Shown in pieces: positions 11,868-61,519 of a DNA stretch of 64,000 bases; within the stretch, counting starts at the first letter, position 1, and each line of letters begins with the position of its first letter. Below the pieces are notes generated by a model that saw nothing but the letters and a program-made list of their open reading frames with translations, did no database searches and was not told the DNA's origin. The position numbers and the translations under genes are program-made. Source of the stretch: Promicromonospora thailandica. GTDB taxonomy: Bacteria; Actinomycetota; Actinomycetes; Actinomycetales; Cellulomonadaceae. The stretch spans positions 297,300 to 361,299 of the forward strand of contig NZ_JAMTCS010000002.1 in NCBI RefSeq assembly GCF_024171955.1, in the 5' to 3' direction.

Positions 11868-11970
11868 GGGTCAGTCATCCCGTCCGTTGTGCGTCTGATG
11901 TGCGGAAATGCGGGCCTACTCGGCACTCTGCCCCAGCGACGCCGCCGGGTCTACCCGCGCGCGCAACCTC

Positions 11971-12036
11971 CTCTTCGAGACCGAGGTTTCTTTGCTTTGA
12001 GCGGCCTCAAAGCGAAGAAACCTCGGTCTCGAAGAG
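11971..12036. repeat. Long hairpin, family A copy 1
   Basis: A 31-nt stem (11971-12001 with 12006-12036) and 4-nt loop; the arms match except for one position that would be a G-U pair in RNA. The core TTCGAGACCGAGGTT is shared with two other hairpins at 36642 and 60647. It lies between the uxaC stop and the aguA start, both on the minus strand, and could terminate uxaC transcripts. No U-tract is present. Confidence 0.85.
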
Positions 12037-12094
12037 GGTCGGCGCGGGGTGGGCCGGGGTCGGCGCGGGGTCGGCCCGGGTGGGCCGGCGGCGG

Positions 12095-17105: not shown

Positions 17106-18013
17106 CGGACGGGCGCGCCACCGCGAGCCTGCGGCACCGGCTGGCCGAGCGTGGCATCGACCCCACGCTCCTCCTGCTGGTGCCCGGCCTCGTGGTCGCG
17201 GTGGCGCTCTTCGTCTACCCGTTCTCCTACGGGATCGGGCTCACCGTGCAGCCCACCGCCGCGATGCAGGAGCAGTGGGGCGGCGGCATCCTCGCGAACT
17301 ACGTCGCCTTCTTCCGCGACCCGTTCGTGTTCGACTCCATCGGCCTGACCATGCGGCTCGCCCTGCCCGCCGCGCTGTTCAACGTGCTGGCCTCCGTGCC
17401 GGTGGCCATGGTGCTGCGGCACCGGTTCCGGGGGAAGCGGCTGCTGACGTCGCTGCTGGTGCTGCCGATCACGCTGGGCACCGTGCTCACGGCCCAGGGC
17501 CTGCTGATCTTCGCGGGGCGGCAGGGCTGGCTCAACCGGGCGCTGCTGGAGCTCGGCCTGATCGACGAGCCGCTGCAGCTCGTCAACAACTACCTGGGCG
17601 TCATGTTCTCCCTGGTGATCACAGGCTTCCCGTTCGCCTTCCTGCTCATCTCGTCCTACCTGTCGGGCATCGACCCGTCGCTGGAGCGGGCCGCGAAGAC
17701 GCTCGGCGCCGGCTGGTGGCAGCGGTTCCGGCGCATCATCCTGCCGCTGCTCGCCCCGGGGCTGGCCACGACGTTCATCCTCACGTTCGTGCTCGCGTTC
17801 TCCGTGTTCCCGTCGGCGCGGCTGGTGGGTGACGCCATGGGCTCCACCCGCGTCATGTCGCTCATGGCGTTCCGGGCGTTCGGCGAGCAGAACGACTACG
17901 CGATGGCCTCGACCATCGCGCTCATGATGGGCGCCGTCGAGCTGCTCGTCGTGGTGGCCGTGCTCGGTCTGCGGTCGCTGCTGTACCGCGGGACCACAGG
18001 AGGGAAGGGCTGA
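17102..18013 (+). CDS. ABC transporter permease, PotB type
   Basis: Inner-membrane permease of 303 aa with six predicted helices. The coupling loop with LERAAKTLGAGWWQRFRRIILP (begins near residue 195) is the EAA-like motif in which a Leu/Glu-Arg-Ala-Ala opening is typical of polyamine/iron-type permeases. The GTG start overlaps the ATPase stop by 4 bp (GTGA). It forms the channel with the next gene. Confidence 0.93.
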   Translation: MTDGRATASLRHRLAERGIDPTLLLLVPGLVVAVALFVYPFSYGIGLTVQPTAAMQEQWGGGILANYVAFFRDPFVFDSIGLTMRLALPAALFNVLASVPVAMVLRHRFRGKRLLTSLLVLPITLGTVLTAQGLLIFAGRQGWLNRALLELGLIDEPLQLVNNYLGVMFSLVITGFPFAFLLISSYLSGIDPSLERAAKTLGAGWWQRFRRIILPLLAPGLATTFILTFVLAFSVFPSARLVGDAMGSTRVMSLMAFRAFGEQNDYAMASTIALMMGAVELLVVVAVLGLRSLLYRGTTGGKG

Positions 18014-18870
18014 TGGCGGCGACAACGCTGGAGCGGCCGGTCGCCGCGCGGCCGTCCACCTGGTTCGTCTGGGCGGGGATGGCGGCCTTCGGGGTCTTCC
18101 TCCTCGGGATCCTCGTCGCGGTGGTGGTCGACTCGTTCGGCCGCCAGTGGTTCGACACGTGGTTCCCCGACGGCCTGACCGTCGAGCGCTACACCGAGGC
18201 CTGGGACCGGTTCTCGCTCGGCGAGGTCGTGGGCGTCACGGTCGGGGTGGCGGTGCTCGTCGTCGTCATCTCGGTGCTGGTGGGCGTGCCCGCCGCGTAC
18301 GTGCTGGCCCGGCGTGACTTCCCGGGCAAGCGCGTGGTGATGCTGCTGTTCCTGCTGCCCGTGCTCATGCCGCCCATCACGTACGGCATCCCGCTCGCCA
18401 CGGTCATGTACTCGTTCGGGCTCGGCCGCACGCTGACCGCCGTCGTGCTGGTCAACCTCGTGCCGTCCGTGCCGTTCGTGATCCTGACGATGACGCCGTT
18501 CATCGAGCAGATCAACCCCGCCATCGAGTCCGCCGCCCGCATGTGCGGCGCTCGCACCCGGCAGGTGTTCACGCGCATCCTCGCGCCCCTGCTCGTGCCG
18601 GGCATCCTCGCGGCGGGCATCCTGGTGCTGGTCCGGACGGTCGGGCTGTTCGAGCTGACCTTCCTCGTGTCGGGTCCTGGATCGGACACGCTCGTCGTGG
18701 CGATCTACCGTGGCATGACGGCGGCCGGCGGCGGCGAGGCACGACAGCTCATCTCGGCCATGTCGGTGATCTACACCGCGACCATGCTCGTCATGCTCGT
18801 GGTGGCGCTGCGGTTCGTGAACCCGACGCAGCTCGTGGCACAGGTGAAGGAGGCACGCGATGACGACTGA
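18013..18870 (+). CDS. ABC transporter permease, PotC type
   Basis: Second permease (285 aa, six helices) of the putative uronate transporter. The coupling loop contains IESAARMCGARTRQVFTRIL (near residues 175-194). The ATG overlaps the previous stop by one base (TGATG). Its 3' end overlaps the start of the fructuronate reductase gene by 11 bp, tying transport and catabolism in one transcript. Confidence 0.93.
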   Translation: MAATTLERPVAARPSTWFVWAGMAAFGVFLLGILVAVVVDSFGRQWFDTWFPDGLTVERYTEAWDRFSLGEVVGVTVGVAVLVVVISVLVGVPAAYVLARRDFPGKRVVMLLFLLPVLMPPITYGIPLATVMYSFGLGRTLTAVVLVNLVPSVPFVILTMTPFIEQINPAIESAARMCGARTRQVFTRILAPLLVPGILAAGILVLVRTVGLFELTFLVSGPGSDTLVVAIYRGMTAAGGGEARQLISAMSVIYTATMLVMLVVALRFVNPTQLVAQVKEARDDD

Positions 18871-20353
18871 GGACCACCCGCAGGACCGCCTGCACAGGGA
18901 CCACGTCCCCGACGGCGTCGACGCGCCCGTGACGCCGACGGCGGTGGGCATCGTCCACCTCGGCATCGGCGCGTTCCACCGGGCCCACCAGGCCGTCTAC
19001 ACCGAACGCGCCGCGCTGGCCACGGGCGACACGTCGTGGGGCATCCTCGGCGTGACCCAGCGGTCGGCGACCGTGCGGGACCAGCTCCGGCCCCAGGGCG
19101 GCGTGTACGCGGTGCTCACGGCGGGGGAGCAGGAGTCCTCGCTCGAGCTGGTCGGGTCGGTGGTCGACGTCGCCTACCCCGCGCAGGAGACCGGGCGGGT
19201 GCTGGAGGCCCTCGCGGCGCCGTCGACCCACGTGGTGACCCTGACCATCACGGAGAAGGGGTACGCGCGGCGGCCGGACGGGTCGCTCGACACGTCCGTC
19301 GTCGGCCCGGACCTGGCGGCGCTGCGCGCGGGCGACGCCGTGCCGGCGGCGTCGGCCATCGGCCTGCTGGTGCGCGGGCTCGCCGCGCGTGCGCCGTCCG
19401 GCGCGCCCATCACAGTGCTGACCTGCGACAACATGGTCGACAACGGCCGCGTGCTGGAGCGCCTGGTGCGCGAGGCCGTCGACGCCGCGCTGCCCGGCGC
19501 GGAGGGGGACGCGCTGCGCGGGTTCCTCGACGAGCGGGTCACGTTCCCGTGCTCGATGGTGGACCGCATCGTGCCCGCCACCACGCCGGAGCAGCGTGAC
19601 GAGGTGGGTCGCCTGCTCGGCGTGCGGGACGAGGGCCTCGTGGTGGGCGAACCGTTCGCGCAGTGGGTGATCGAGGACCGGTTCGCCGGGCCGCGCCCCG
19701 CCTGGGAAGCCGCGGGCGCCACGCTGACCAAGGACGTGGCGCCCTTCGAGCAGGCCAAGCTGCGGCTGCTCAACGGCACGCACTCGCTCGTCGCGTACGC
19801 CGGCTGGGTCGCGGGGTACGCGACCATCGCGGAGGCGGTGACCGACCCGGAGATCGCCGAGCGGGCACGGCAGTACCTCTTCGAGGACGCGCTGCCCACG
19901 CTCACCGCACCCGACGGGCTGGACCTGCACCGGTACGGCGAGCAGATCCTCGCCCGCTTCGCCAACCCGCACACCGGGCACACCACCACCCAGGTGGCGA
20001 TGGACGGCACGCAGAAGATCCCGTTCCGCTGGGGCGGCGTGGTCGCCGACGCGCTGGCCGCGGGCCGGGAGCCGCAGGGGGTGGCGTTCGGCCTGGCCGC
20101 GTGGGCGGAGTTCGTGCGACGCCGGCTGCTCACCGGGGAGGGTGTCGACGACCCGCGGGCCGGAGAGCTGGCCGCGCTGGTGAGCGACGCGGAGGTGCCG
20201 GGCGGCTCCGACGGGCTGGGCGACGTCGCCGGGCTGGCCGGCGCCGAGGAGGACCTCCGAGCCCTGCTCGGCCTGCCGGGGCTGCTGCCCGAGGGGACTC
20301 CGGAGAGCTTCGTGGACCTGGTGGCCGGGGAGATCGAGTCGGTGCTGGGCTGA
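18860..20353 (+). CDS. uxuB: Fructuronate reductase (mannitol dehydrogenase family)
   Basis: Polyol/uronate dehydrogenase of 497 aa predicted to reduce D-fructuronate to D-mannonate with NADH. The N-terminal Rossmann fingerprint is HLGIGAFHRAHQA (residues 33-45). The catalytic Lys300, Asn305 and His308 lie in AKLRLLNGTHS. Length fits the long-chain family. Assignment to fructuronate rather than mannitol or tagaturonate rests on co-location with uxaC and the uronate repressor. AAGGAGG precedes the ATG, inside the end of the permease gene. Transcription downstream runs into the mirrored repeat region. Confidence 0.88.
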   Translation: MTTEDHPQDRLHRDHVPDGVDAPVTPTAVGIVHLGIGAFHRAHQAVYTERAALATGDTSWGILGVTQRSATVRDQLRPQGGVYAVLTAGEQESSLELVGSVVDVAYPAQETGRVLEALAAPSTHVVTLTITEKGYARRPDGSLDTSVVGPDLAALRAGDAVPAASAIGLLVRGLAARAPSGAPITVLTCDNMVDNGRVLERLVREAVDAALPGAEGDALRGFLDERVTFPCSMVDRIVPATTPEQRDEVGRLLGVRDEGLVVGEPFAQWVIEDRFAGPRPAWEAAGATLTKDVAPFEQAKLRLLNGTHSLVAYAGWVAGYATIAEAVTDPEIAERARQYLFEDALPTLTAPDGLDLHRYGEQILARFANPHTGHTTTQVAMDGTQKIPFRWGGVVADALAAGREPQGVAFGLAAWAEFVRRRLLTGEGVDDPRAGELAALVSDAEVPGGSDGLGDVAGLAGAEEDLRALLGLPGLLPEGTPESFVDLVAGEIESVLG

Positions 20354-20396
20354 GGTGCTGGGTCGGTCGTCGGTCGTCGGTCGTCGGGGTGGGGTT

Positions 20397-20484
20397 GAGT
20401 TCGGTCGGTCGGTCGACTGGCGGGTTCGGTCGGTTGGTCGATGGGCGGACTGAGTTCGGTCGGTCGGTCGACGGGCGGACTGAG
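20397..20484. repeat. Left arm of mirrored array: about three 25-30 bp direct repeats
   Basis: Units beginning TTCGGTCGGTCGGTCGAC or TTCGGTCGGTTGGTCGAT occur at 20400, 20425 and 20455, with a fourth start at 20485 that runs into the hairpin; spacings are 25, 30 and 30 bp. The preceding 30 bases are a simple GGTCGTC-type repeat. The units are the reverse orientation of the GACCGAA motif that begins each unit on the right. No gene is seen; translations of this region in other frames are Arg/Gly-rich shadows. Confidence 0.85.
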
Positions 20485-20485
20485 T

Positions 20486-20543
20486 TCGGTCGGTTGCCCT
20501 GAGATCGGTCCTTCGGAGGACCGATCTCAGGGCAACCGACCGA
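20486..20543. repeat. Central hairpin of the mirrored array, family C copy 1
   Basis: Perfect 27-bp stem (20486-20512 with 20517-20543) and loop TCGG. The core GAGATCGGTC and flanking TCGGTCGGTTGCC recur in a second hairpin at 28668. It lies 132 bp after the uxuB stop and could terminate that operon, but it also forms the axis between inverted left and right repeat arrays. Confidence 0.88.
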
Positions 20544-20818
20544 TCTCGGTGGAGTGACTGGTGCATGTGACCGGTCTCGGTCGCGTGGCTCGTGCAGGCG
20601 ACCGAACTTGGTGGAGTGGCAGGAGCAAGCGACCGAAGTCGGGGGAGTGGCTGGGAGCAACCGACCGAAGTCGATGGGAGCGCCTGGCGCACGCGACCGA
20701 ACTCACCGAGGTGCCCGCTACACGCGACCGAACTCACCGAAGTGCCCGGCGCATGCGACCGAACTCACCCGAGCAGCGGGCGCAGGCGACCGAGCTCGGC
20801 CGCCCCGCACGACGGGAC
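20538..20818. repeat. Right arm of mirrored array: nine degenerate 31-bp tandem repeats
   Basis: Units beginning GACCGA (one GACCGG) start at 20538, 20569, 20600, 20631, 20663, 20695, 20726, 20757 and 20788, so the period is 31 bp with two 32-bp steps. The first half of the unit (GACCGAACTC or variants) is best conserved; the remainder averages GGTGGAGTGGCNGGAGCA. The period is not a multiple of three, so it is not coding. It is too degenerate, and lacks unique spacers, to be a CRISPR array. The 31-bp period would place the GACCGA boxes on one face of the helix. Confidence 0.88.
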
Positions 20819-20830
20819 GCCGGCAAGCGG

Positions 20831-20883
20831 TTGACCGTGTCCGGCTGCCTCTGCCACGCTCCCCACTGTTTGAATCGCTTCAA
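20831..20883 (+). promoter_or_regulatory. Promoter and LacI-type operator before Gfo/Idh gene
   Basis: A TTGACC -35 box (20831-20836) is followed about 18 bp later by a weak CACGCT -10 and then TTGAATCGCTTCAA (20870-20883), an inverted repeat like the operators upstream of the rhamnose genes. The layout (TTGACC, CT-CCC, then operator) closely resembles the rhaI promoter at 38962. Binding by the LacI regulator at 28734-29750 is inferred. Confidence 0.6.
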
Positions 20884-20913
20884 TCGTCACTGTCCGAGGA
20901 GGACGCACACACC

Positions 20914-21993
20914 ATGAGAACCACGATCCTGGGGGCGGGAGCCATCGCCGGGGCCCACGCGGGAGCCGTCGCGCAGCTGCCGGAGCACGGTGTGGACGCC
21001 GTCCTGGCCCACGTGGTCGACCTGGACTCGGCGCGGGCCGAGGACTTCGCCCGGCAGCACGGCGTCGCCGCGCACGGGACCTCGCTCGACGGCGTGCTGG
21101 CCGACACGGACGTGCTGCACGTCTGCACCCCGCCCGGCGCGCACGTGGCGGCCGCGGTGGCGGCGCTGGAGGCGGGCGTGCACGTGGTGGTCGAGAAGCC
21201 CGCGGCGCTCTCCCTCGCGGAGGTCGACCGGATCGCGGCGGCGGAGGCGGCGTCGACGGCGTCGTTCACGCAGGTGGTGCAGCACCGGTTCGGGCACGGG
21301 ATCCGGCAGCTGCGCCGGCTGCTCGACGAGGGCGCGCTCGGGCGGGCCCTCGTGGCCACCTGCGACACGCTCTGGTACCGCGCCCCGGAGTACTTCGAGG
21401 TGCCGTGGCGCGGCCGCTGGGACACCGAGGGTGGTGGGCCCACGATGGGCCACGGCATCCACCAGTTCGACCTGCTGCTGGCGGCGCTCGGGCCGTGGGC
21501 CGAGGTGACGGCGATGGCCGGACGCCTCGCGCGCGACGTGGACACCGAGGACGTCTCGATGGCGATCGTCCGCTTCGAGAGCGGGGCGATGGCCACGGTC
21601 ACGAACTCGCTGCTGTCCCCGCGGGAGACCTCCGACCTGCGGTTCGACACCGAGGCGGCCACGATCGAGCTGTCGCACCTGTACGGCTACACCGACGCCG
21701 ACTGGACGTTCACGCCGGCACCGGGCCGGGACGACGTCGCGGCCCGGTGGCAGCCGGACCCCGACGCGCTGCCCTCGGGGCACCTGGCCCAGCTGGTGCC
21801 CACCTACCGGGCGTTCGCCGCGGGCGAGGCGCCGCCGGTCACCGTCGCCGACACGCGCGGCACGCTGGAGCTGGTCGCGGCGATCTACCGCTCGGCGTTC
21901 ACGGGCGCCGTGGTCCGCGCGGGCGAGATCACCGCGGGCGACCCCTTCCACACCTCGATGCGTGGCACGGGCCCCGTCTGGCCGCTCCGGTAG
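20914..21993 (+). CDS. Gfo/Idh/MocA-family oxidoreductase
   Basis: NAD(P)-dependent sugar dehydrogenase-like protein of 359 aa. The Rossmann motif GAGAIAGAH is at residues 7-15, the conserved EKP is at 94-96 in VVVEKPAAL, and the catalytic region GGGPTMGHGIHQFD (around 178-191) contains the typical His. GAGGAGG precedes the ATG; the open frame further upstream is repeat sequence. The gene is followed by a terminator-like hairpin and then a CUT1 transporter. Possible substrates are sugar or uronate products from rhamnogalacturonan, but the family is too diverse to say. Confidence 0.85.
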   Translation: MRTTILGAGAIAGAHAGAVAQLPEHGVDAVLAHVVDLDSARAEDFARQHGVAAHGTSLDGVLADTDVLHVCTPPGAHVAAAVAALEAGVHVVVEKPAALSLAEVDRIAAAEAASTASFTQVVQHRFGHGIRQLRRLLDEGALGRALVATCDTLWYRAPEYFEVPWRGRWDTEGGGPTMGHGIHQFDLLLAALGPWAEVTAMAGRLARDVDTEDVSMAIVRFESGAMATVTNSLLSPRETSDLRFDTEAATIELSHLYGYTDADWTFTPAPGRDDVAARWQPDPDALPSGHLAQLVPTYRAFAAGEAPPVTVADTRGTLELVAAIYRSAFTGAVVRAGEITAGDPFHTSMRGTGPVWPLR

Positions 21994-22005
21994 CTCCTGT
22001 CAGGG

Positions 22006-22066
22006 GTCGAGCGTAGGAATCGTCGGCGTCAGGAGGGCTCGTACGCCGACGATTCCTACGCTCGAC
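22006..22066. terminator. Perfect 24-bp stem hairpin after Gfo/Idh gene
   Basis: Arms GTCGAGCGTAGGAATCGTCG (continuing to 22029) and the exact complement at 22043-22066 enclose a 13-nt loop. It starts 12 bp after the stop codon and separates this gene from the transporter operon. The stem is far longer than common rho-independent terminators and has no U-tract. Confidence 0.8.
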
Positions 22067-22120
22067 GACGCGGTGGCCGCGACGACAGCGGTGACAGCGG
22101 AAATTCGTGGCGCTCAGGCC

Positions 22121-22157
22121 TGGACAACGCTTCCCGGACCGGTATTGTATCGATTCA
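22121..22157 (+). promoter_or_regulatory. Promoter and operator of the CUT1 transporter operon
   Basis: A TGGACA -35 box (22121-22126) and a TTGTAT or TATTGT -10 (about 22143-22150) are followed directly by TGTATCGATTCA (22146-22157), one base from the perfect palindrome TGAATCGATTCA found before rhaI. The operator overlaps the -10 box, which fits repression. Confidence 0.6.
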
Positions 22158-22208
22158 GTCAGCCGCCGACGGAGTAGCCGGCGCGCCAGCACGAGCAAGG
22201 AGGCTCAC

Positions 22209-23543
22209 GTGGTCCGCACACGCACCACTCCCAGGACCAGGACGGCCGCCGTCCAGGTCACCGCCCTCGCGGCGGCATCAGCCCTCGCCCTCTCGGCGTG
22301 CGGTGGCGGAACCACCGCCTCGGCCGACGCCGCGCCCGTCGCCACCGACCGCGACATCGAGCTGTCCCTGGTCTGGTGGGGTGACGACGACCGCGCGTCC
22401 CGCTACGAGGAGGCCGTCGCGCTGTTCGAGGAGAAGTACCCGAACATCGACGTCCAGACCCAGTTCCAGGCGTGGGACGACTACTGGACCGCGCGCAGCA
22501 CCGAGGCCGCGGGCCAGACGCTGCCCGACGTCTTCCAGATGGACCTCGCCTACATCCACCAGTACGCGTCGAACAACCAGCTCCTGGACCTGTCGAACCA
22601 GGTGGGCGTCAACCTGGACACCGCGGGGTACGACGAGGCGCTGCTCGCGTCCGGCGCGGTCAACGGCGGCCAGTTCGGTATCCCGACCAGCACCAACACA
22701 CTCGGCATGATCCGTCACGACGACCTCCTGGACGAGCTGGGCATCGACCCGCCCGCGGAGGGCCTCACCTGGGACGAGTACGACGCCTGGATCCGCGAGG
22801 TCAGCGAGGCCGGCGCCGACCACGACCCGCAGGTCTACGGCGGCACCGACTACACGGGCACCCTGTGGCTGTTCATCCAGTGGCTGCTGCAGCAGGGCAA
22901 GACGGCGTTCGACGACGACGGCACGCCCGCCTTCACCAAGGACGACCTGGTGGCCTGGGTCGAGCGCACCCAGCCGCTGCGCGACGACGGCGTGTTCTAC
23001 CCCGTGCAGCGCGCCAAGCAGGTGGAGCCGCTCACGGGCCTCCAGGTCAACGAGGCTGCGACCGAGCTCACCTGGGACAACATGATGGCCGGGTACTCGG
23101 CCAGCGCCGGCACCGAGAACGTCGACCTGCTGCCCGTGCCGACCGGCGCGGACGGCTCGCAGCAGTTCTGGAAGCCGTCGATGCTGCTGTCGTCGTCGGC
23201 GAGCACGCAGGAGCCCGACGCCGCCGCCGCGCTCATCGACTTCCTCGTCAACGACCCCGAGGTGGGCGCGATCTTCGGCACCTCGAAGGGCGTCCCGGCC
23301 GTGGTCGGCCAGCGCGACGCGATGGAGATCGAGGAGGGTTCCGTGGACGGCAAGATCGTCGGCTACGAGGACGCCGTCGCCGAGCGCGTCACCGCCGACA
23401 CCCCGCTCCCCGCCGAGGGTTACGGCGTGGTCGAGGTCGAGTTCAAGCGCCTGGGCGAGGAGCTCTCCTACGGCAACATCACGCCGGAGGAGTTCGCCGA
23501 CCAGTGGTTCCAGAGCGCCGAGGCCAACCTCGGCGGGGCGTGA
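22209..23543 (+). CDS. CUT1 sugar-binding lipoprotein
   Basis: Extracellular binding lipoprotein of 444 aa. The GTG start follows AAGGAGG by five bases; the longer open frame has no ribosome site. The lipobox LSAC places Cys at residue 31. The mature domain shows a cluster-B oligosaccharide-binding fold (LVWWGDDDRASRYEEAV near the start; FGIPTSTNTLGMIRHDDLLD in the hinge region). It opens an operon with two permeases and a DUF624-like gene, upstream of a rhamnogalacturonan lyase, so unsaturated or rhamnose-containing oligosaccharides are plausible ligands. Confidence 0.92.
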   Translation: MVRTRTTPRTRTAAVQVTALAAASALALSACGGGTTASADAAPVATDRDIELSLVWWGDDDRASRYEEAVALFEEKYPNIDVQTQFQAWDDYWTARSTEAAGQTLPDVFQMDLAYIHQYASNNQLLDLSNQVGVNLDTAGYDEALLASGAVNGGQFGIPTSTNTLGMIRHDDLLDELGIDPPAEGLTWDEYDAWIREVSEAGADHDPQVYGGTDYTGTLWLFIQWLLQQGKTAFDDDGTPAFTKDDLVAWVERTQPLRDDGVFYPVQRAKQVEPLTGLQVNEAATELTWDNMMAGYSASAGTENVDLLPVPTGADGSQQFWKPSMLLSSSASTQEPDAAAALIDFLVNDPEVGAIFGTSKGVPAVVGQRDAMEIEEGSVDGKIVGYEDAVAERVTADTPLPAEGYGVVEVEFKRLGEELSYGNITPEEFADQWFQSAEANLGGA

Positions 23544-24523: not shown

Positions 24524-25401
24524 CGACAGCGACCGTGACCTCCACCCCCGCCCGCCAGGCTCGGCAGCGCCGGCGCACCCGGTCGGTCGGGTTCCACGTG
24601 CTGGCCGTCGTCGTCGCCGTGGTGATCCTGTACCCCGGCGCGTGGATGGTGATGAGCTCGTTCAAGCCGAGCGGCGAGATCGTCGGCAACGTGAACCTCT
24701 GGCCCGAGACGTGGACGCTCGACAACTACGTGTCCGCGCTCAGCGGCATCGGTGGGGTCTCGTTCTGGACCTTCGTGCTCAACTCGCTGATCCTCGCGGT
24801 CGGCTCCGTGGTGGGCGTGGTGCTCTCCGCGAGCGTCTCGGCCTACGCCTTCGCGCGGATCAGCTTCCCGGGCCGCGGGGTGTTCTTCGCGATCATGATC
24901 GGCACGATGCTGCTGCCGTTCCACGTGGTGATCATCCCGCAGTACATCCTGTTCAACTCCATGGGCATGGTGAACACGTTCCTGCCCCTGCTGGCCCCGA
25001 AGTTCCTGGCCACCGAGGCGTTCTTCGTGTTCCTCATGGTGCAGTTCCTGCGCGGGCTGCCCCGTGAGCTCGACGAGGCCGCGCGCATCGACGGGTGCGG
25101 GCACTGGGGCATCTTCCGGCGCGTGCTGCTGCCGCTCATGCGCCCCGCGGTGATCACCAGCTCGATCTTCGCCTTCATCTGGTCGTGGAACGACTTCCTC
25201 GGGCCGCTGCTCTACCTCAAGCGCCCCGACACCTACCCGCTGCCCATCGCGCTGCGCCTCTACGTGGACCAGACGTCGGTGTCCGACTACGGCGCCCAGA
25301 TGGCCATGGCCGTGCTCGCGCTGGTGCCGGTGCTGCTGTTCTTCGTGGTGTTCCAGCGCTACCTGGTGGACGGTGTCGCGACCCAGGGCCTCAAGGGGTG
25401 A
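24520..25401 (+). CDS. CUT1 ABC permease (MalG/UgpE type)
   Basis: Second permease of the pair (293 aa, six helices, EAA loop ELDEAARIDGCGHWGIFRRV, ending in ...GVATQGLKG). The ATG overlaps the previous stop by 4 bp and the next GTG overlaps its own stop by 4 bp. The C-terminal LKG/VKG ending is common to MalG-type permeases, including the other copies in this window. Confidence 0.93.
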   Translation: MTTATVTSTPARQARQRRRTRSVGFHVLAVVVAVVILYPGAWMVMSSFKPSGEIVGNVNLWPETWTLDNYVSALSGIGGVSFWTFVLNSLILAVGSVVGVVLSASVSAYAFARISFPGRGVFFAIMIGTMLLPFHVVIIPQYILFNSMGMVNTFLPLLAPKFLATEAFFVFLMVQFLRGLPRELDEAARIDGCGHWGIFRRVLLPLMRPAVITSSIFAFIWSWNDFLGPLLYLKRPDTYPLPIALRLYVDQTSVSDYGAQMAMAVLALVPVLLFFVVFQRYLVDGVATQGLKG

Positions 25402-26204
25402 CCGCGGTGGGTGCGGAGCGGGGAGACGCCCGCCGACCGGACGCCGGCCCGGCCGGCGGTACGGACGAGCGGGCGGTCGGCGGTGTGGTCGGCGTCCCGG
25501 ACGCCGGCCCGGCCGGCGGTGCGGACGAGCGGGCGGGCGGACGTGCTGGCGAGCGGCCCGGCGAGCGCGTGCCCGGCGAGGGCCGGTTCGCGCTGCTGGG
25601 CGAGACGCTCCTGACCGGCCTGCTCGTGCTCGCCGGCAGCCTGTTCGTGGTGACGGTCCCGGCCGCGCTCGCCGCCGGCGTCGCGCACCTGCGCCGGTAC
25701 GTCGCGGGGTACGACACGTCGGCTCACTCCTTCGCCCGCGACTGGCGGACGGCGGTGCGCGAGACCTGGCTCCTCGGCGTCCTGGCGCTCGCGGCCGGTG
25801 CGGTGGTGCTGGTCAACACCGGGCTGACGGCGTCGGGCGTGCTGCCCGGCGCGCCGGTGGTGCGCTGGGTGACGTGGGCCGCCGCGGCCTGCGCCGCCGT
25901 CGTGCTGGTCCGCGCGGCGGCGGCGTGGTCGGACGGGGAAGGGGCGACCGCCCGCCCTGCCCAGACTGTCCCCGGTCCGGTGGGGGAACGGGACGTCCCT
26001 CGCAGCGCCCGCGCGCTGCTGGCCCGTGGCGCGGCCCGCGCCGGCGACGACCTGGTCGGCTCGGCGCTCCTGCTCGCTGCCCTGGGCATGTGCGCGGTGC
26101 TCGTGTGGATGTTGCTGCCGCTCGTGCTGGTGACGGGCGGCCTCCTCAGCCTGGCGGCGACCGCCGTCGAGACGCGGCGGACCGGGCGCCCCTCGCTGCC
26201 CTGA
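25398..26204 (+). CDS. DUF624-like membrane protein with repeated N-terminus
   Basis: Membrane protein of 268 aa translated from GTG 25398, overlapping the permease stop by 4 bp. The first 65 residues are a low-complexity segment containing the 20-residue repeat PDAGPAGGxDERAxG twice. Then come about four helices with DUF624 character (LLTGLLVLAGSLFVVTVPAAL; ATAVETRRTG near the end). Assignment to DUF624 is by pattern and by position at the end of a sugar ABC operon, as with the clearer members at 4217 and 53350. The tail after helix 2 is unusually Ala-rich. A start nearer residue 60 would remove the repeat, but no good ribosome site is visible there. Confidence 0.65.
   Translation: MTAVGAERGDARRPDAGPAGGTDERAVGGVVGVPDAGPAGGADERAGGRAGERPGERVPGEGRFALLGETLLTGLLVLAGSLFVVTVPAALAAGVAHLRRYVAGYDTSAHSFARDWRTAVRETWLLGVLALAAGAVVLVNTGLTASGVLPGAPVVRWVTWAAAACAAVVLVRAAAAWSDGEGATARPAQTVPGPVGERDVPRSARALLARGAARAGDDLVGSALLLAALGMCAVLVWMLLPLVLVTGGLLSLAATAVETRRTGRPSLP
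25437..25540 (+). repeat. In-frame 60-bp tandem duplication
   Basis: Segments 25437-25480 and 25497-25540 are identical apart from two bases (25461 and 25477), with an exact 60-bp offset. Sixty bases keep the frame, so the duplication adds 20 residues to the cytosolic N-terminus of the DUF624-like protein. Near identity suggests a recent event. Confidence 0.85.
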
Positions 26205-26326: not shown

Positions 26327-28648
26327 ATGATCCCGAGATCGACCCGTGCGGGCGCCGCCCTGGCGGCAGTGCTCTGCCTGGGGCTGAGCGGGGTGGGCGT
26401 CGCGACGTCCGCGCAGTCCGCCGAGCCCGCCCGTCAGACGCACCTCACCCCGGGCCGCCCGTCGTCCGCCGCCCAGGGGACCGAGCCGCTCGGCCGGGGC
26501 CTGGTGGCCGCCGCGACCAGCGAGGGCGTGTTCCTCAGCTGGCGGCTGCTCGCCCCCGAGGTGACCGGCCACACCGGCGACGGCCTGACGGGCCCGGGCT
26601 TCGCGGTGTACCGCGACGGGCGGCGCATCGCGAAGGTGACCGGTGCGACCAACTTCTCCGACCCGGCGGGCAGCCCCGGCTCGCGGTACCGCGTGGTGCC
26701 GCTGAGCGGCCCGAACAAGGGCAGGGCGGCGTCGGCCGAGGTGTGGGCCGACGGCCACCTGGACATCCCCCTCGACAAGCCCGCCGACGGCGTGACGCCC
26801 GCGGGCGAGACCTACACCTACCGCGCCAACGACGCCTCCGTGGCGGACCTCGACGGGGACGACGAGTACGAGCTCGTCGTGAAGTGGGACCCGTCCAACT
26901 CCAAGGACGTCTCCCAGGTGGGCTACACCGGCAACGTCTACCTCGACGCGTACGAGCTCGACGGCACGCAGCTGTGGCGCGTCGACCTGGGCGTCAACAT
27001 CCGCGCGGGCGCGCACTACACGCAGTTCCCCGTCTACGACTACGACGGCGACGGCCGCGCCGAGCTCATGATGAAGACCGCCCCCGGCACGCGCGTGACC
27101 ACGTACCGCGCCGGGCGGCCCGCCGGGCAGCACTACGTGCCGATCGCCAAGGACGACCGCGCGGCCGGGGTGCGGCACACCGACGACTACCGGATGTCCG
27201 CGGGCGACTACTACGAGCACCTCGTGGACGTGTTCCGCGGCTGGTCGACCCGCCCGGAGGTGGTGGCGGGGGACTGGCCCGCCACGCTCGAGGAGGCGTG
27301 GGGCATCGGCCCGCGATGGACGTACCCGCTGTCCGACGCCGACGCGCGCGCCGCCGTCGACCACTTCGTCGACGTCTACGCCCCGTCCCGTTCCACGCGA
27401 AACCAGCTCCGCGCGTTCGAGGGCTTCGTGCTCACCGGGCCCGAGTACCTCACCGTGTTCGACGGGCGCAGCGGCCGCCCGCTGGAGACCGTCGACTACG
27501 AGCCCGGGCGCACCGACGACGGCCTGCTCTGGGGCGACTACGCCATGAGCCGCATCGAGCCGGGCAACCGCGTGGACCGCTTCCTGTCCGGCGTCGCGTA
27601 CCTGTCGAAGGACCGGCCGAGCGCGATCTTCGCGCGCGGCTACTACACGCGCTCGACGGTGGCGGCCTACGACTGGGACGGGCGGCACCTGAGCCGGCGC
27701 TGGCTCGCCGACTCCGGCTGGACGCCCATGCGCAATCCCTTCTCCGACTCCCCGCACGGCGTGCCCGGCACCTCGCCCGAGTGGGGAAGCCTGACCACCC
27801 AGGGCTTCCACTCGCTCTCGGCGGCCGACGTCGACGGCGACGGGCGCCAGGAGATCGTCTACGGGTCCGCGACCCTGGACCACGACGGGTCGCTCCTGTA
27901 CTCGTCGTTCGACACGCTGCCCGAGGGTTCTGCGAACCCGGGAGCGCTCGCGGGTCTCGGCCACGGCGACGCCATGCACGTGACGGACATCGACCCGGCG
28001 CGCCCGGGTCTGGAGATCTGGACCGCGCACGAGGGCGCGACCTGGGCACCGTACGGTTCGGCGATGCGGTCGGCCGAGGACGGCGCCGTGCTGTTCGGGC
28101 AGTACTCCGGGCGGGACACGGGCCGGTCGATGATCGGCGACGTGCTCCCCGACGTGCCCGGCATCGAGGTGTGGGCGTCGATGCCGGACGGCACGCTGGG
28201 CTCGGGCACGCTGAGCGCCACGGGCGAGCAGGTGTCGACGTCGACCATGGGCACCAACCAGTCGGTGCGCTGGGCCGGGGACGGCAGCACGCAGATCGTC
28301 GACGGCGCCGAACCGGCGACGCCGGTGATCCGGGACTGGTCGCGCGGCGTGGTGCGGACCCTCGACGGCACGCTGACCAACAACGGCACCAAGGGCAACC
28401 CGTCGCTCGTGGCCGACGTGCTCGGCGACTGGCGCGAGGAGGTGCTGGTGCGCACCGCCGACTCCGGCGCGCTGCGGCTGTACACCACCACCGAGCCGAG
28501 CGACATCGCGCTCTACACGCTCATGCAGGACCGGCAGTACCGCGTGGAGGTGGCACGGCAGCAGACCACCTACAACCAGCCCTCGTACCCGAGCTTCTAC
28601 CTGGCGACGGACACGAACTGGGCCGAGGTCCCGATCCCGCGCAGCTGA
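26327..28648 (+). CDS. Secreted rhamnogalacturonan lyase, PL11
   Basis: Extracellular enzyme of 773 aa that cleaves the rhamnose-galacturonate backbone of rhamnogalacturonan I by beta-elimination. The signal peptide covers residues 1-32 (cleavage after QSA). The mature protein shows the eight-bladed beta-propeller of family PL11 (YesW/YesX-like) preceded by a small beta domain (residues 45-145); Ca-binding blade loops such as DLDGDDEYE, DYDGDGRAE and DVDGDGRQE are evident. AGAGAGGA precedes the ATG. No carbohydrate-binding module is fused. A hairpin separates it from the upstream transporter operon, but no separate operator was recognised, only two GAATTC boxes before the start. Confidence 0.95.
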   Translation: MIPRSTRAGAALAAVLCLGLSGVGVATSAQSAEPARQTHLTPGRPSSAAQGTEPLGRGLVAAATSEGVFLSWRLLAPEVTGHTGDGLTGPGFAVYRDGRRIAKVTGATNFSDPAGSPGSRYRVVPLSGPNKGRAASAEVWADGHLDIPLDKPADGVTPAGETYTYRANDASVADLDGDDEYELVVKWDPSNSKDVSQVGYTGNVYLDAYELDGTQLWRVDLGVNIRAGAHYTQFPVYDYDGDGRAELMMKTAPGTRVTTYRAGRPAGQHYVPIAKDDRAAGVRHTDDYRMSAGDYYEHLVDVFRGWSTRPEVVAGDWPATLEEAWGIGPRWTYPLSDADARAAVDHFVDVYAPSRSTRNQLRAFEGFVLTGPEYLTVFDGRSGRPLETVDYEPGRTDDGLLWGDYAMSRIEPGNRVDRFLSGVAYLSKDRPSAIFARGYYTRSTVAAYDWDGRHLSRRWLADSGWTPMRNPFSDSPHGVPGTSPEWGSLTTQGFHSLSAADVDGDGRQEIVYGSATLDHDGSLLYSSFDTLPEGSANPGALAGLGHGDAMHVTDIDPARPGLEIWTAHEGATWAPYGSAMRSAEDGAVLFGQYSGRDTGRSMIGDVLPDVPGIEVWASMPDGTLGSGTLSATGEQVSTSTMGTNQSVRWAGDGSTQIVDGAEPATPVIRDWSRGVVRTLDGTLTNNGTKGNPSLVADVLGDWREEVLVRTADSGALRLYTTTEPSDIALYTLMQDRQYRVEVARQQTTYNQPSYPSFYLATDTNWAEVPIPRS

Positions 28649-28667: not shown

Positions 28668-28736
28668 TGAGTTCGGTCGGTTGCCTCGAGATCGGTCCTT
28701 CAAGCGACCGATCTCGAGACAACCGACCGAAACTCA
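28668..28736. repeat. Long hairpin, family C copy 2
   Basis: Arms 28668-28697 and 28706-28736 pair over about 30 bp with one bulge and one mismatch. TTCGGTCGGTTG and GAGATCGGTC match the hairpin at 20486. It lies between the converging lyase and LacI genes and contains the LacI stop codon in its right arm, so it can end both transcripts. Confidence 0.85.
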
Positions 28737-29750
28737 GGGGCGGGCGCTCGACGTGCGGACCACCAGGGTGGGCTGGAACATCACGTGCTCCGCCGTGTCC
28801 GGAGCCGTGAGGAGCAGGTCGGCCGCGCGGACGCCGAGCTCGTGGGTCGGCTGGCGCACCGAGGTCAGCGGCGTGGACAGCTCGGCGGCGAAGGCGACGT
28901 CGTCGTACCCGACCACCGCCATGTCGGTGGGCACCGCGATGTTCTCCGTGCGGAGCGTGCGCAGCACGCCCAGCGCGACGAGGTCGTTGACGCAGAAGAC
29001 GGCGGTGGGCTGGTCGCCCGACTCCAGCAGGCCGCGGATCGCCGCCTCGCCGCCCTCCGCGTTGAGGCTGGTCACCGTGATCTCGGTGAGGGCCTGCTCC
29101 GGGTCGAGCCCCACGGCGGCCAGCGCCTTGACCACGCCCTCGTGGCGGTCGGCGCACTGGCGGATCGTGTGCGGTCCGTTGAGGAACGCGATGCGGGTGT
29201 GCCCCTGCTCCAGCAGGTGCTGGGCGGCGAGCTCGCCGCCGCGCACGTCGTCGACGGCGACCGAGGAGATGCCCGGGTCGGGCGACGGCCGGTCCAGCAG
29301 GACGACGCCCGTGCCGCGCCGGCGGACGGCCTGGAGGTGTTCGATGTCGTCGGTGGCGGGCACGACGATGATGCCCTGCACGCCGTGCTCCTCGAACAGG
29401 CGCAGGTAGCGCTGCTCGCGCCCGGGGTCGTCGTCCGACGAGGCGACCATGAGCGTGAAGTCGTCGCGGTCCAGGCGCTCCTCGATGCCGCGCGCCACGT
29501 CGGTGAAGAACGGGTTGGCGATGTCCAGCACGATGGCGCCGATGGTCGTGATGGTGCCCGCCCGCAGCTGCCGGGCCGACCCGTTGCGCACGAAGCTCAG
29601 CTCGGCGATCGCCGCCTCGACCCGCTCCCGGGTGCCGGGCAGCACCCGGTCGGGCCGGTTGAGCACGTTGGACACCGTGCCGACGGAGACGCCGGCGGCG
29701 CGGGCGACGTCGGCGATGGATGCTCGGCGGGGAGCGGCCGGACGAGTCAT
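28734..29750 (-). CDS. LacI-family regulator, probably of rhamnose/rhamnogalacturonan genes
   Basis: LacI/GalR protein of 338 aa with an HTH at residues 11-32 (SIADVARAAGVSVGTVSNVL), hinge residues 50-65 and an effector domain (IVLDIANPFFTDVARGIEE onward). AAGGAGGT precedes the ATG. It is divergent from rhamnose mutarotase with a TGAACCGTTTCA site in between. Similar palindromes lie before the Gfo/Idh gene, the CUT1 operon, the rhaTPQS operon and rhaI, so it is the best candidate for the common repressor. The inducer (rhamnose, rhamnulose or a lyase product) is not determinable. Confidence 0.9.
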   Translation of the reverse strand: MTRPAAPRRASIADVARAAGVSVGTVSNVLNRPDRVLPGTRERVEAAIAELSFVRNGSARQLRAGTITTIGAIVLDIANPFFTDVARGIEERLDRDDFTLMVASSDDDPGREQRYLRLFEEHGVQGIIVVPATDDIEHLQAVRRRGTGVVLLDRPSPDPGISSVAVDDVRGGELAAQHLLEQGHTRIAFLNGPHTIRQCADRHEGVVKALAAVGLDPEQALTEITVTSLNAEGGEAAIRGLLESGDQPTAVFCVNDLVALGVLRTLRTENIAVPTDMAVVGYDDVAFAAELSTPLTSVRQPTHELGVRAADLLLTAPDTAEHVMFQPTLVVRTSSARP

Positions 29751-30203: not shown

Positions 30204-30267
30204 CCGCCGACCCAGTCATCGTGCCCAGGATCGGGGTCGATCCTGGGCACGATGACTGGGTGGGCGG
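30204..30267. repeat. Long hairpin, family B copy 2
   Basis: Thirty-base arms (30204-30233 and 30238-30267) pair with a single mismatch around a 4-nt loop (GGGT). The outer part CCCAGTCATCGTGCCCA matches the hairpin at 26223. It lies between the converging rhaM and APC-permease genes, 25 bp from each end, and probably terminates both. Confidence 0.87.
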
Positions 30268-36593: not shown

Positions 36594-36641
36594 CGGAGGG
36601 CGGCCGCCGTCGTCCTCGCGCCGATCTCCCTCCGCCTCACT

Positions 36642-36705
36642 CCTTCGAGACCGAGGTTGCTTCGCTGTGCGGTCGCTCACAGCGGAGCAACCTCGGTCTC
36701 GAAGG
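36642..36705. repeat. Long hairpin, family A copy 2
   Basis: Arms 36642-36669 and 36678-36705 (28 bp) pair throughout, with one G-U, around an 8-nt loop. The core TTCGAGACCGAGGTTGCTTC is shared with the hairpin at 60647 and nearly with that at 11971. It separates the converging rhaS and acyltransferase genes. Confidence 0.87.
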
Positions 36706-36730
36706 GGAGGGAGGCGGGGGTGCCGCCCCG

Positions 36731-53353: not shown

Positions 53354-54045
53354 GTGCGGTGGGGGTGGCGGCTCCCGCGCGGCGCCGCCGGATGCTCCTC
53401 GGGCCCGAGACCTACGAGCTCGTGTTCGGCACCGTCTACACGGGCCTGATGACCAACCTGCTGCTGGCGCTCGCCTGCCTGCCGCTCGCGGTCCTCGTCG
53501 CCGCGACCGACCTGGCCTCGACCTGGCCGCTCGCCGCCCTGACCGCGCCGCTGCTCGGCCCGGCCCTGGTGGCGGCCTTCACGGTGTTCGCCCGGTTCAG
53601 CGCGGACGGGTCGACGGCCGTGGTCCGCACCTTCGCCGGCGCCTGGTGGCGGCACCTGCGCCGTGGCCTGGCGATCGGGGCGCTGGGTACGGGCGCCGTC
53701 GTCGTCGCCGTCGTCGACGTGGCGTTCTTCTGGGGGCGGACTGCGGGTGCGGCCGCGATCCCGGTGCTGGTCACGCTGGCGGCGGGGGCGGTCGCGACCG
53801 CCGTCCTGGCCCTGGCCGCCGTGCCCGAGATGCCGGACGCCCGCCTGCGCGACATGCTGCTCGCGGCCCTCGTGCTCGGCGCCCGGCGCTGGTACGTCTC
53901 GGTCGGGGTGCTCGTCGTGCTCGGCCTGCTGACCTCCGTGGTGGCGACGCGTCCCGCGGTGGGCCTGGGGTTCGCGGCGGCCCCGCTGCTGTTCGCGGCC
54001 TGGGGCGCGTGCCGCTTCGCCCTCCGCCCACCCCCGCCGAAGTAG
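53350..54045 (+). CDS. DUF624 (YesL-like) membrane protein
   Basis: Membrane protein of 231 aa with five or six helices, the last gene of the CUT1 operon. DUF624 features are the N-terminal TYELVFGTVYTGLMTNLLLA helix, a Pro-containing second helix (LACLPLAVLV), a GPALVAAF motif and a conserved FARFSADGST loop. The ATG overlaps the permease stop by 4 bp. The last codons, Pro-Lys-stop, lie in the left arm of a 111-bp palindrome. Role unknown; see the paralogues at 4217 and 25398. Confidence 0.8.
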   Translation: MSAVGVAAPARRRRMLLGPETYELVFGTVYTGLMTNLLLALACLPLAVLVAATDLASTWPLAALTAPLLGPALVAAFTVFARFSADGSTAVVRTFAGAWWRHLRRGLAIGALGTGAVVVAVVDVAFFWGRTAGAAAIPVLVTLAAGAVATAVLALAAVPEMPDARLRDMLLAALVLGARRWYVSVGVLVVLGLLTSVVATRPAVGLGFAAAPLLFAAWGACRFALRPPPPK

Positions 54046-54147
54046 AACCCCAGCGAAGTAGAACTGCAGCGAGATAGAACTCCAGCTCCACGACGGAGCT
54101 GGAGTTCTACCTCGCCCTGGTTCTACTTCGCTGCAGTTCTACTTCGG
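54037..54147. repeat. 111-bp imperfect palindrome with repeated GTAGAAC units
   Basis: Arms of 53 bases (54037-54089 and 54095-54147) pair around a 5-nt loop, with mismatches confined to three short patches. Each arm contains three related boxes (CGAAGTAGAAC, GCGAAGTAGAAC, GCGAGATAGAAC). It covers the DUF624 stop codon and ends 14 bp before the convergent isomerase gene. It is the longest stem in the window. Confidence 0.87.
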
Positions 54148-60561: not shown

Positions 60562-60646
60562 GAGAGGCCATTCTCCCGCACGACGCCGTGGTCCGTGCCG
60601 CGGGCCGGGCGCCGGGGCCCGCGACGAACCCATCCCGCCCGGATCA

Positions 60647-60710
60647 CCTTCGAGACCGAGGTTGCTTCGCTGTGACGGCCCGCACAGCGAAGCAACCTCG
60701 GTCTCAAAGG
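60647..60710. repeat. Long hairpin, family A copy 3
   Basis: Arms 60647-60674 and 60683-60710 (28 bp) pair with one mismatch around an 8-nt loop. The left arm is identical to that of the copy at 36642 over its 28 bases. The AraC stop codon (60704-60706) lies in the right arm. It sits between the AraC gene and the downstream kinase-like gene, both on the minus strand. Confidence 0.87.
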
Positions 60711-61519
60711 AGGCCGGCGGTCGGCGCGGGGGTGGCGCCGCGCTGGTAGCGACCCGGCGTGGTGCGCAGGAGACGGCGGAAGTGGCGGGTCAGGTGGGCC
60801 TGGTCGTGGAAGCCCGTCGCCACCGCGACGTCGGCCGCCGGCTCGCCCGCCAGCAGGCGGCGGCGCGCCAGGTCCAGCCGCCGCCCCACGAGGTACCGGT
60901 GCGGCGGCAGGCCGAGCTCCCGGGTGAACGCCCGGACCAGGTGCGGCACGGTCACGTCGAGCTCGGCGGCGACCTCGGCCAGCCGGACCGGGCGGGCGGG
61001 GTCGGCGTCGAGCAGGTCGCGGGCCCGCCGGGCGGTCGTCGCGGCGGACGGTTCGCGCGGCGGCGTCGGGCGCCCCGAGAGGTGCCAGGCCAGACCTTCC
61101 GTGACCAGGGCGAGCAGCCCCTCGGCCGCGACGTCCTCGCGCACCGTGAGGGCGCGGTCGAGGCCCGCGAAGCGCGCGCGGAGCGTGTCGTCGGGCACGA
61201 GCGGCGCGTCGACAGCGCGCCCGGTCAGCGCGGGGTCCAGCACCGTGGGCTCCAGGTACAGGACACGCTTGCGGAAGCCCGCGGCGGTCACGGACCGCCC
61301 GTCGTGCACGACGCCGGGCGGCAGCACCGTCACGCCGGTGTGCTCCGCCGCGTGCTCCTGCCCGCCCAGGCCGTACCCGATCAGCCCCCGGTCGACGATC
61401 AGCACCGTCCAGGTGTCGTGCGTGTGCGACGGGTAGGCGTGCTCGTGCCACGCGGCGTGCAGCACCTCGGCGACGCCGGTCACTCCCGGCCGCCACGCGC
61501 GCACCACGTCCGGACCCAT
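60704..61519 (-). CDS. AraC-family regulator
   Basis: AraC-type activator of 271 aa. The N-terminal cupin (residues 15-110; HEHAYPSHTHDTWTVLIV) senses a ligand; the C-terminal double HTH (residues 165-265) has LAEVAAELDVTVPHLVRAF and ADVAVATGFHDQAHLTRHFR. ATG 61519 has no ribosome site but a TACGTT -10-like box ends 7 bases upstream, which suggests a leaderless mRNA. It is divergent from the DUF2000 gene with only 50 bp between, so it probably controls that gene. Confidence 0.88.
   Translation of the reverse strand: MGPDVVRAWRPGVTGVAEVLHAAWHEHAYPSHTHDTWTVLIVDRGLIGYGLGGQEHAAEHTGVTVLPPGVVHDGRSVTAAGFRKRVLYLEPTVLDPALTGRAVDAPLVPDDTLRARFAGLDRALTVREDVAAEGLLALVTEGLAWHLSGRPTPPREPSAATTARRARDLLDADPARPVRLAEVAAELDVTVPHLVRAFTRELGLPPHRYLVGRRLDLARRRLLAGEPAADVAVATGFHDQAHLTRHFRRLLRTTPGRYQRGATPAPTAGLL

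Follow-up and report, generated by a model that had tools for sequence, protein, structure and literature searches.

Pneumococcal BOX elements are dispersed and intergenic, and they contain an internal module in variable copy number. REP sequences and BIMEs, as the portion of PMC3733652 drawn on here describes them, are short dispersed palindromes that lie mostly in convergent or co-directional regions near gene 3' ends, often as inverted pairs; the same portion describes CGTC-tagged REPs as having no dedicated transposase. In the excerpted text of PMC9283540, the stoperators of cluster A mycobacteriophages are many asymmetric intergenic words bound by a monomeric repressor, and their orientation matters for stopping transcription. 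Intrinsic terminators of GC-rich actinobacteria appear in the cited extract of PMC12207403 as long, stable 3'-end hairpins with few U. REP-like repeats are common, though the selection that keeps them is rarely testable.

Here we describe a mirrored repeat array in Promicromonospora thailandica, carried on a stretch of 64,000 nucleotides (the window; contig C2:297300-361299 of a 5.38-Mb draft genome). For repeats of such kind in Promicromonospora, no paper was found among the matches listed in the open PMC literature. The array belongs, as one of its large members, to a genus-specific family of elements dispersed between genes. The reading we favor, with slightly less than even confidence, is that of a REP/BIME-like intergenic element whose 16-bp words may be read as DNA by an inferred protein.

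Structure of the window array

The array occupies an intergenic region of 560 bp (20354-20913, from a simple codon-based gene caller and Pfam) between a mannitol dehydrogenase gene (18860-20353, + strand) and a gene for a GFO/IDH/MocA oxidoreductase (20914-21993, + strand). The ten closest relatives of the oxidoreductase protein, at 83-89% identity, all come from Promicromonospora. Just before this gene stands the palindrome TTGAATCGCTTCAA (20870-20883), which we take to be a LacI-family operator-like motif; similar sequences occur there in some relatives, and a LacI-family gene (Pfam) lies at 28734-29750. The window also contains a 60-bp tandem repeat (25437-25578) where a predicted gene (25398-26204) begins.

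Left of the axis, four words lie on the + strand. Counted outward they are GAGTTCGGTCGGTTGC (20482-20497, 26 bp from the axis and within the stem), GAGTTCGGTCGGTCGG (20452-20467, 56 bp), GGGTTCGGTCGGTTGG (20422-20437, 86 bp) and GAGTTCGGTCGGTCGG once more (20397-20412); their common TTCGGTCGG starts at 20400, 20425, 20455 and 20485, in steps of 25, 30 and 30 bp. The core palindrome, GAGATCGGTC-CTTCGGAG-GACCGATCTC (20501-20528), has a 10-8-10 layout and consists of two head-to-head copies of the array word. It forms the center of a longer palindrome (20479-20550) that folds into 27 uninterrupted inner pairs with a 4-base UCGG loop and 6 more pairs beyond one mismatch (RNA folding, z = -12.2). 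To the right, nine words on the - strand follow at 20532-20547, 20563-20578, 20594-20609, 20625-20640 and 20657-20672 (26, 57, 88, 119 and 151 bp from the axis) and at 20689-20704, 20720-20735, 20751-20766 and 20782-20797. Their GACCG starts (20538, 20569, 20600, 20631, 20663, 20695, 20726, 20757 and 20788) are separated by 31, 31, 31, 32, 32, 31, 31 and 31 bp, and eight of the nine read GACCGA while the second reads GACCGG.

The array is far beyond chance, and an earlier sequence-only reading had captured most of its architecture: the four left unit starts, the perfect 27-bp axial stem, the inverted arrangement with words mirrored about the axis and the non-coding location are all as it had described them. 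Its nine right units at a 31-bp period with two 32-bp steps are likewise present, but its unit consensus GACCGA(A/T/G) fails for the second. Tandem Repeats Finder, a check it had proposed, recovers a period-30 row (20396-20494) and overlapping period-31 rows (one of 32) between 20532 and 20797. We agree with it, too, in rejecting CRISPR, as the repeats are degenerate and mirrored, not near-identical in one orientation. Taken by itself, the window array offers weak support for conservation of words over spacers: with the unit-finding letters left out, words score 7.7 and spacers 5.8 of 9 (p = 0.023), and the difference weakens when the hairpin unit is removed (p = 0.083). Neighboring spacers within one array are alike.

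A genome-wide family with a fixed layout

The array is not unique in its genome; this, and the head-to-head make-up of the core, had escaped the sequence-only reading. A BLAST search with the array gave 90 matches over both strands of the P. thailandica genome, at roughly 40 other places, and TTCGGTCRSTTGC occurs 116 times there with at most one mismatch, vs 14 times for its reversed control. At least 45 cores of the form GAGATCGGTC-N8-GACCGATCTC (up to 2 mismatches) are present in the window and the fetched stretches, in which the reversed control of the pattern gave 0; these counts are lower bounds, since the window array served as the BLAST query that retrieved the copies and scoring covered 40 of 169 first-look candidates. 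The core center is 8 bases long in 45 of 45 P. thailandica cores and in 21 of 21 and 24 of 24 cores of two P. iranensis genomes (G002 and G003), even though 2 to 18 bases were allowed; one center of 9 bases was seen in another genome (G006). Exact cores occur in 12 of 13 genomes of the genus, at 2 to 37 per positive genome (0-37 overall). Outside the genus, a sample of 137 genomes from the bacterial family yielded them in 1, at 2 sites. At one of those two exact cores (L196, in a member of another genus), the second-tier words match partly.

From the elements and the rungs farther out, the family word can be read as the asymmetric 16-mer GASWTCGGTCNNTTGC. Among the 100 matches to the word that were listed, out of 116, 7 lay outside elements by eye, or 10 if a pair with a neighbor near C9:167742-168021 is included. 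Isolated words are at about background, and we rejected the idea of DNA-uptake-like single words on that ground. A second member of the family is present in the window at 28668-28735, in a two-tier form, between the convergent genes 26327-28648 (+) and 28734-29750 (-).

In mirror orientation, the word recurs at approximately 7, 26, 56/57 and 86-88 bp from the axis. Across 90 P. thailandica arms, exact TCGGTC was found at 7 bp in 82, at 26 bp in 87, at 56-57 bp in 43 and at 86-88 bp in 9, and in the opposite orientation in no more than 4 arms at any distance; in P. iranensis it is present at 56-57 bp in 24 of 42 arms (G002) and 36 of 48 (G003). Outward from the second word, 125 of 145 steps measure 30 or 31 bp (24-39 bp searched; 87 sites in three genomes, 3 of the original 90 having been dropped for want of a tier-2 word). 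Spacers are unrelated between sites, and the columns between the second and third word carry little information. A conserved period with drifting sequence was what the sequence-only reading had named as the mark of function, and at the level of the family this is the pattern observed. Its proposal that a 31-bp pitch would align boxes on one helix face would hold outward of the second word and only there, because the inner step is 19 bp.

The third tier is variable. In P. thailandica it is present on both sides of 20 elements, on one side of 3 and on neither side of 22, where 10.3 would be expected on both; the corresponding counts are 8, 9 and 4 in G002 and 15, 9 and 0 in G003, in which this left-right coupling is absent. 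Convergent sites in P. thailandica are two-tier in 11 of 14 cases, and other intergenic sites are three-tier on at least one arm in 19 of 26 (p = 0.003). We rejected two-tier and three-tier copies as functional classes, given that three-tier copies occupy longer regions and that none of the 22 kept G003 sites is two-tier on both arms. Whole elements occasionally stand in tandem (L017, 3046-3547; L014, 3032-3287; L022, 3034-3285; intervals of 217, 188 and 184 bp, respectively), and two loci show an additional core-like match at 50 bp from the principal core (L185, near 2525/2575; L187, near 2516/2566), as if a second axis were forming.

Other repeats of related appearance are present. At 54038-54146 in the window, a second mirrored array of 16-bp units (CGAAGTAGAACTCCAG, inverted GCTGCAGTTCTACTTC) surrounds a hairpin between convergent genes, and its relatives in the genome form palindromes of up to 50 bp with three 16-bp tiers. 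The hairpin family TTCGAGACCGAGGTTGCTTCGCTTTG occurs at 11970-12037, 36640-36707 and 60645-60712, has an 8-base center in the 4 copies that match with at most 2 mismatches, and resembles a hairpin at the window-array slot of three other Promicromonospora species. The family GAGATCTGGT-N8-ACCAGATCTC (L197-L208; L011 at about 7910; L014 at about 4639) has the same 10-8-10 core and 19-bp second step with a third step of 21 bp; a genus genome with only 2 copies of the TCGGTC family (G001) has 11 exact copies of it. Further long hairpins of other sequence lie at gene ends at 22003-22069 and 30204-30267, one in a tandem and one in a convergent region.

Constraint on words, spacers and stem

At nine loci with homologous flanks in P. 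thailandica and P. iranensis, the words and the core persist and the spacers differ. Tiers come and go, because in four of the nine (L010, L013, L031 and L035) the P. thailandica copy is without the third tier found in P. iranensis on one or both sides. At one orthologous locus followed in three genomes (L016, L168 and L194), the right arrays differ in copy number and keep mostly 31-bp steps (counted from the second word on, 31 bp seven times followed by 27; 31, 31, 31, 32, 31; and 31, 31, 62, 30). Local duplication does occur, since neighboring spacers are alike within an array and copy number differs between orthologous arrays.

We compared the two P. iranensis genomes over 14 locus pairs with 16 elements, drawn from 19 G002 and 20 G003 loci, the remaining loci having no detected partner. 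Cores had been chosen by exact match, so that the absence of core-word change between them is by construction. Divergence is about 25% at center, linker and NN positions, and spacers differ at 41 of 197 positions. Tier-2 word positions differ at 14 of 416, a figure with a mild bias in that the left arm was required to have at most one mismatch to the word; on the right arm, where no word filter applied, TCGGTC differs at 0 of 96 positions. The third word of G002 is retained in G003 in 19 of 21 arms vs 0.247 expected at spacer divergence (p = 3e-10), and that of G003 is retained in G002 in 19 of 27 arms (same expectation, p = 7e-7), while the TTG part of the third word differs at 4 of 57 positions vs the 41 of 197 in spacers (p = 0.017). 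Site counts in these comparisons are not independent because sites share descent. Ectopic gene conversion confined to the words could mimic such constraint. We know of no mechanism for gene conversion with so short a tract.

The inner stem behaves differently from the outer words. Both-side changes were found in 16 of 30 pairs (inner 30 pairs, 44 distinct rows), and none of 500 shuffles was as high on any of five measures. These changes include letters outside the word, and covariation at such letters, needless for a DNA reading alone, suggests a hairpin, or else palindromes corrected by template switching. Beyond about 34 bp from the axis, left and right arms are about as alike as shuffled partners, with an exception at 54-59 bp in P. 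thailandica (0.50 vs 0.38), a distance at which third words tend to occur on both arms together or on none. At sites with third words on both sides, in three genomes, letter agreement between them was on average no higher than for shuffled partners, and spacers showed no left-right covariation. In one NN column each of P. thailandica and G003, left and right third words agree less than shuffled ones (3 of 20 and 1 of 15), which may reflect a hidden polarity. RNA folding of the whole array mixes left-right word pairings with other pairings; on this basis, and as third words do not covary, we rejected the idea that left and right words pair over long distances in RNA. Third-tier words are therefore best described as asymmetric, conserved between sister genomes and without base-pairing covariation. 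Together, the family-wide steps and the retention of third words support a putative phased binding platform.

Placement relative to genes and the RNA-level alternative

Among other explanations, the one that survives best would place the function in RNA: the element would be a bidirectional 3'-end hairpin, either an unconventional intrinsic terminator or an mRNA-stabilizing structure, and its outer words would be by-products of duplication. We consider this unlikely, if well worth weighing. Placement speaks for it. A 464-kb sample contained 39 long hairpins of all families (stem of at least 18), of which 21 were convergent, 16 tandem, 1 divergent and 1 coding; the intergenic regions of at least 70 bp in the same sample number 23 convergent, 104 tandem and 66 divergent. 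The TCGGTC family is placed less strictly, with 45 tandem, 24 convergent and 12 divergent sites and 6 inside gene calls among 87 sites in three genomes (in the 4 "coding" sites examined, gene calls were apparently merged across an open frame). The 41 P. thailandica sites outside gene calls fall into 15 convergent, 22 tandem and 4 divergent regions, vs 4.9, 22.1 and 14.0 expected from the 464-kb region counts (p = 8e-7), so that convergent regions are used about three times as often as expected, tandem regions as expected and divergent regions about a third as often. The 45 tandem copies also lie nearer to the upstream stop (median 84) than to the downstream start (median 228), as a 3'-end hairpin would.

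The compensatory changes in 16 of 30 stem pairs agree with an RNA function, as does the description of Streptomyces terminators as long hairpins with few U in the cited extract of PMC12207403. Sense-strand mismatches at tandem sites give a divided answer: G003 has 14 G-U vs 0 A-C (p = 0.0001), but P. thailandica has 20 vs 20 and G002 6 vs 8, and the three genomes together have 40 vs 28 (p = 0.18). Other evidence weighs against this reading. Third words do not covary and sit beyond the paired region, yet they keep a fixed pitch, and 12 of the 87 sites are in divergent regions. The L016 array, among the largest, lies in a divergent region, and the element is not only a terminator for that reason. 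A canonical intrinsic terminator was rejected for the window array: a GC-rich hairpin is present, although no U-tract or T-run was found in 20300-21000. A known RNA family was rejected as well, as the 13 Rfam matches up to E = 1 in 18000-23000 (12 microRNA-precursor models and one AS-traI) were all below the gathering score; the best, MIR4359, reached 48.2 bits (gathering 75). Among the proteins encoded beside divergent copies and the short proteins encoded beside elements, inspection by eye revealed no common theme, and no DNA-binding candidate stood out; we dropped the idea of a regulon accordingly.

The array slot in related species

Nine Promicromonospora genomes keep the gene upstream of the window array, and eight of the nine have another hairpin or none in its slot. 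In P. panici the slot is occupied by the same family, in a copy with fewer words overall and one additional word on the left. Three species have a GAGGCCTAAGTTTCTTCGCTTTG hairpin and two P. iranensis genomes a TTGAGTGCGGGATATTTGT hairpin (one found by script, the other by eye with a loop over the limit), while three of the nine relatives have no stem of at least 14 bp there. In P. citrea, no such element was present at the slot, and no target-site duplication was noticed by eye. The site is, from these comparisons, a slot where hairpin families replace each other.

Such turnover fits a non-autonomous mobile element, in which the words would be binding sites for a transposase or recombinase and the layout would reflect the enzyme complex. 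Dispersed copies in species-specific numbers (0-37 exact cores per genome), the unrelated hairpin families in the slot and the second family with the same core geometry all favor mobility. We nevertheless hold it to be improbable. PF01797 (Y1_Tnp, RAYT) has 0 matches in the P. thailandica genome, where 5 of 14 control genomes were positive, and RAYT/REPIN mobilization was rejected on this basis. The exact core pattern had no match in viral contigs, and blastn against plasmids and phages (E up to 1e-3) had none either, leading us to reject a phage or plasmid origin. Moreover, conservation is highest at the center of the element and not at its outer ends, the words are still constrained between sister genomes, and the P. 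citrea comparison by eye revealed no target-site duplication. Neutral growth of a terminator hairpin through replication slippage, which the sequence-only reading had offered as the duller explanation, is very improbable in its pure form: spacers alike within arrays, copy number differing between orthologous arrays and only weakly greater conservation of words in the window array (p = 0.023 or 0.083) would suit it, and copy number does vary through local duplication, but the 30-31 bp pitch is common to sites with unrelated spacers and third-word retention is far above what spacer divergence predicts.

Discussion

Our data show that the Promicromonospora element has a fixed, mirrored layout, with a 10-8-10 core followed by a word 19 bp farther out and then by others at intervals of 30-31 bp, in which words and pitch are kept while spacers drift, that its inner stem covaries, that it persists at several orthologous sites, and that convergent regions are over-used and divergent regions under-used in the P. 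thailandica genome. Under the reading that we prefer, in which the words are recognized as DNA, a sequence-specific protein, whose existence we infer, would read each asymmetric 16-bp word in double-stranded form. The words from the second outward would lie on nearly one face of the helix, 30-31 bp being about three turns, and bound copies could touch one another because the outer words share that face. Mirrored words would present the same orientation and face to RNA polymerase arriving from either gene; since polymerase from either side would meet the words in the same orientation, the array would act as a two-way boundary, which might be a transcription roadblock or a chromosomal anchor. 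In addition, the inner palindrome may fold into an RNA hairpin at the 3' end. Further words would be gained or lost by local duplication and retained when in phase.

A broader proposal is possible, although we regard it as doubtful: that the genus has a chromosomal system of protein-read, helically phased words serving as two-way transcription or domain boundaries, a mirror-image cellular counterpart of phage stoperators, to which a sister family with the same core geometry and a different word (GAGATCTGGT, third step 21 bp) would also belong. The layout separates a pairing part (the inner 34 bp on each side) from a word part (the outer rungs), and a single reporter construct would therefore be expected to behave differently under the RNA and the DNA reading. 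Should the words indeed be read by a protein, GC-rich actinobacteria with few U-tracts would have a protein-based form of gene punctuation.

Set beside described systems, the element can be likened to BOX by description, with the difference that its module count varies outward from a central palindrome. It resembles REP/BIME, as presented in the portion of PMC3733652 drawn on here, in being dispersed and mainly in convergent and co-directional intergenic regions; the REP/BIME unit described there is a palindrome of 20-40 bp, whereas the Promicromonospora unit is an asymmetric 16-bp word, set in a fixed 10-8-10 core with a ladder phased at 19 and then 30-31 bp, in a genome without RAYT. The consensus of 45 elements begins with CGAG and ends with CTCG; a GTAG/CGTC foot tag, as defined in that portion of PMC3733652, is absent from it, and no conserved tag was seen further out. 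With stoperators, going by the excerpted text of PMC9283540, it shares many asymmetric words in intergenic gaps; unlike them, its words are chromosomal, without a phage match, mirrored about a palindrome and arranged in fixed-pitch arrays, and its reader protein is putative. Finally, like the GC-rich terminators in the cited extract of PMC12207403, it has a long stable hairpin near gene 3' ends, but it differs from these in its conserved primary sequence, its fixed center length and the conserved words that stand outside the paired region.
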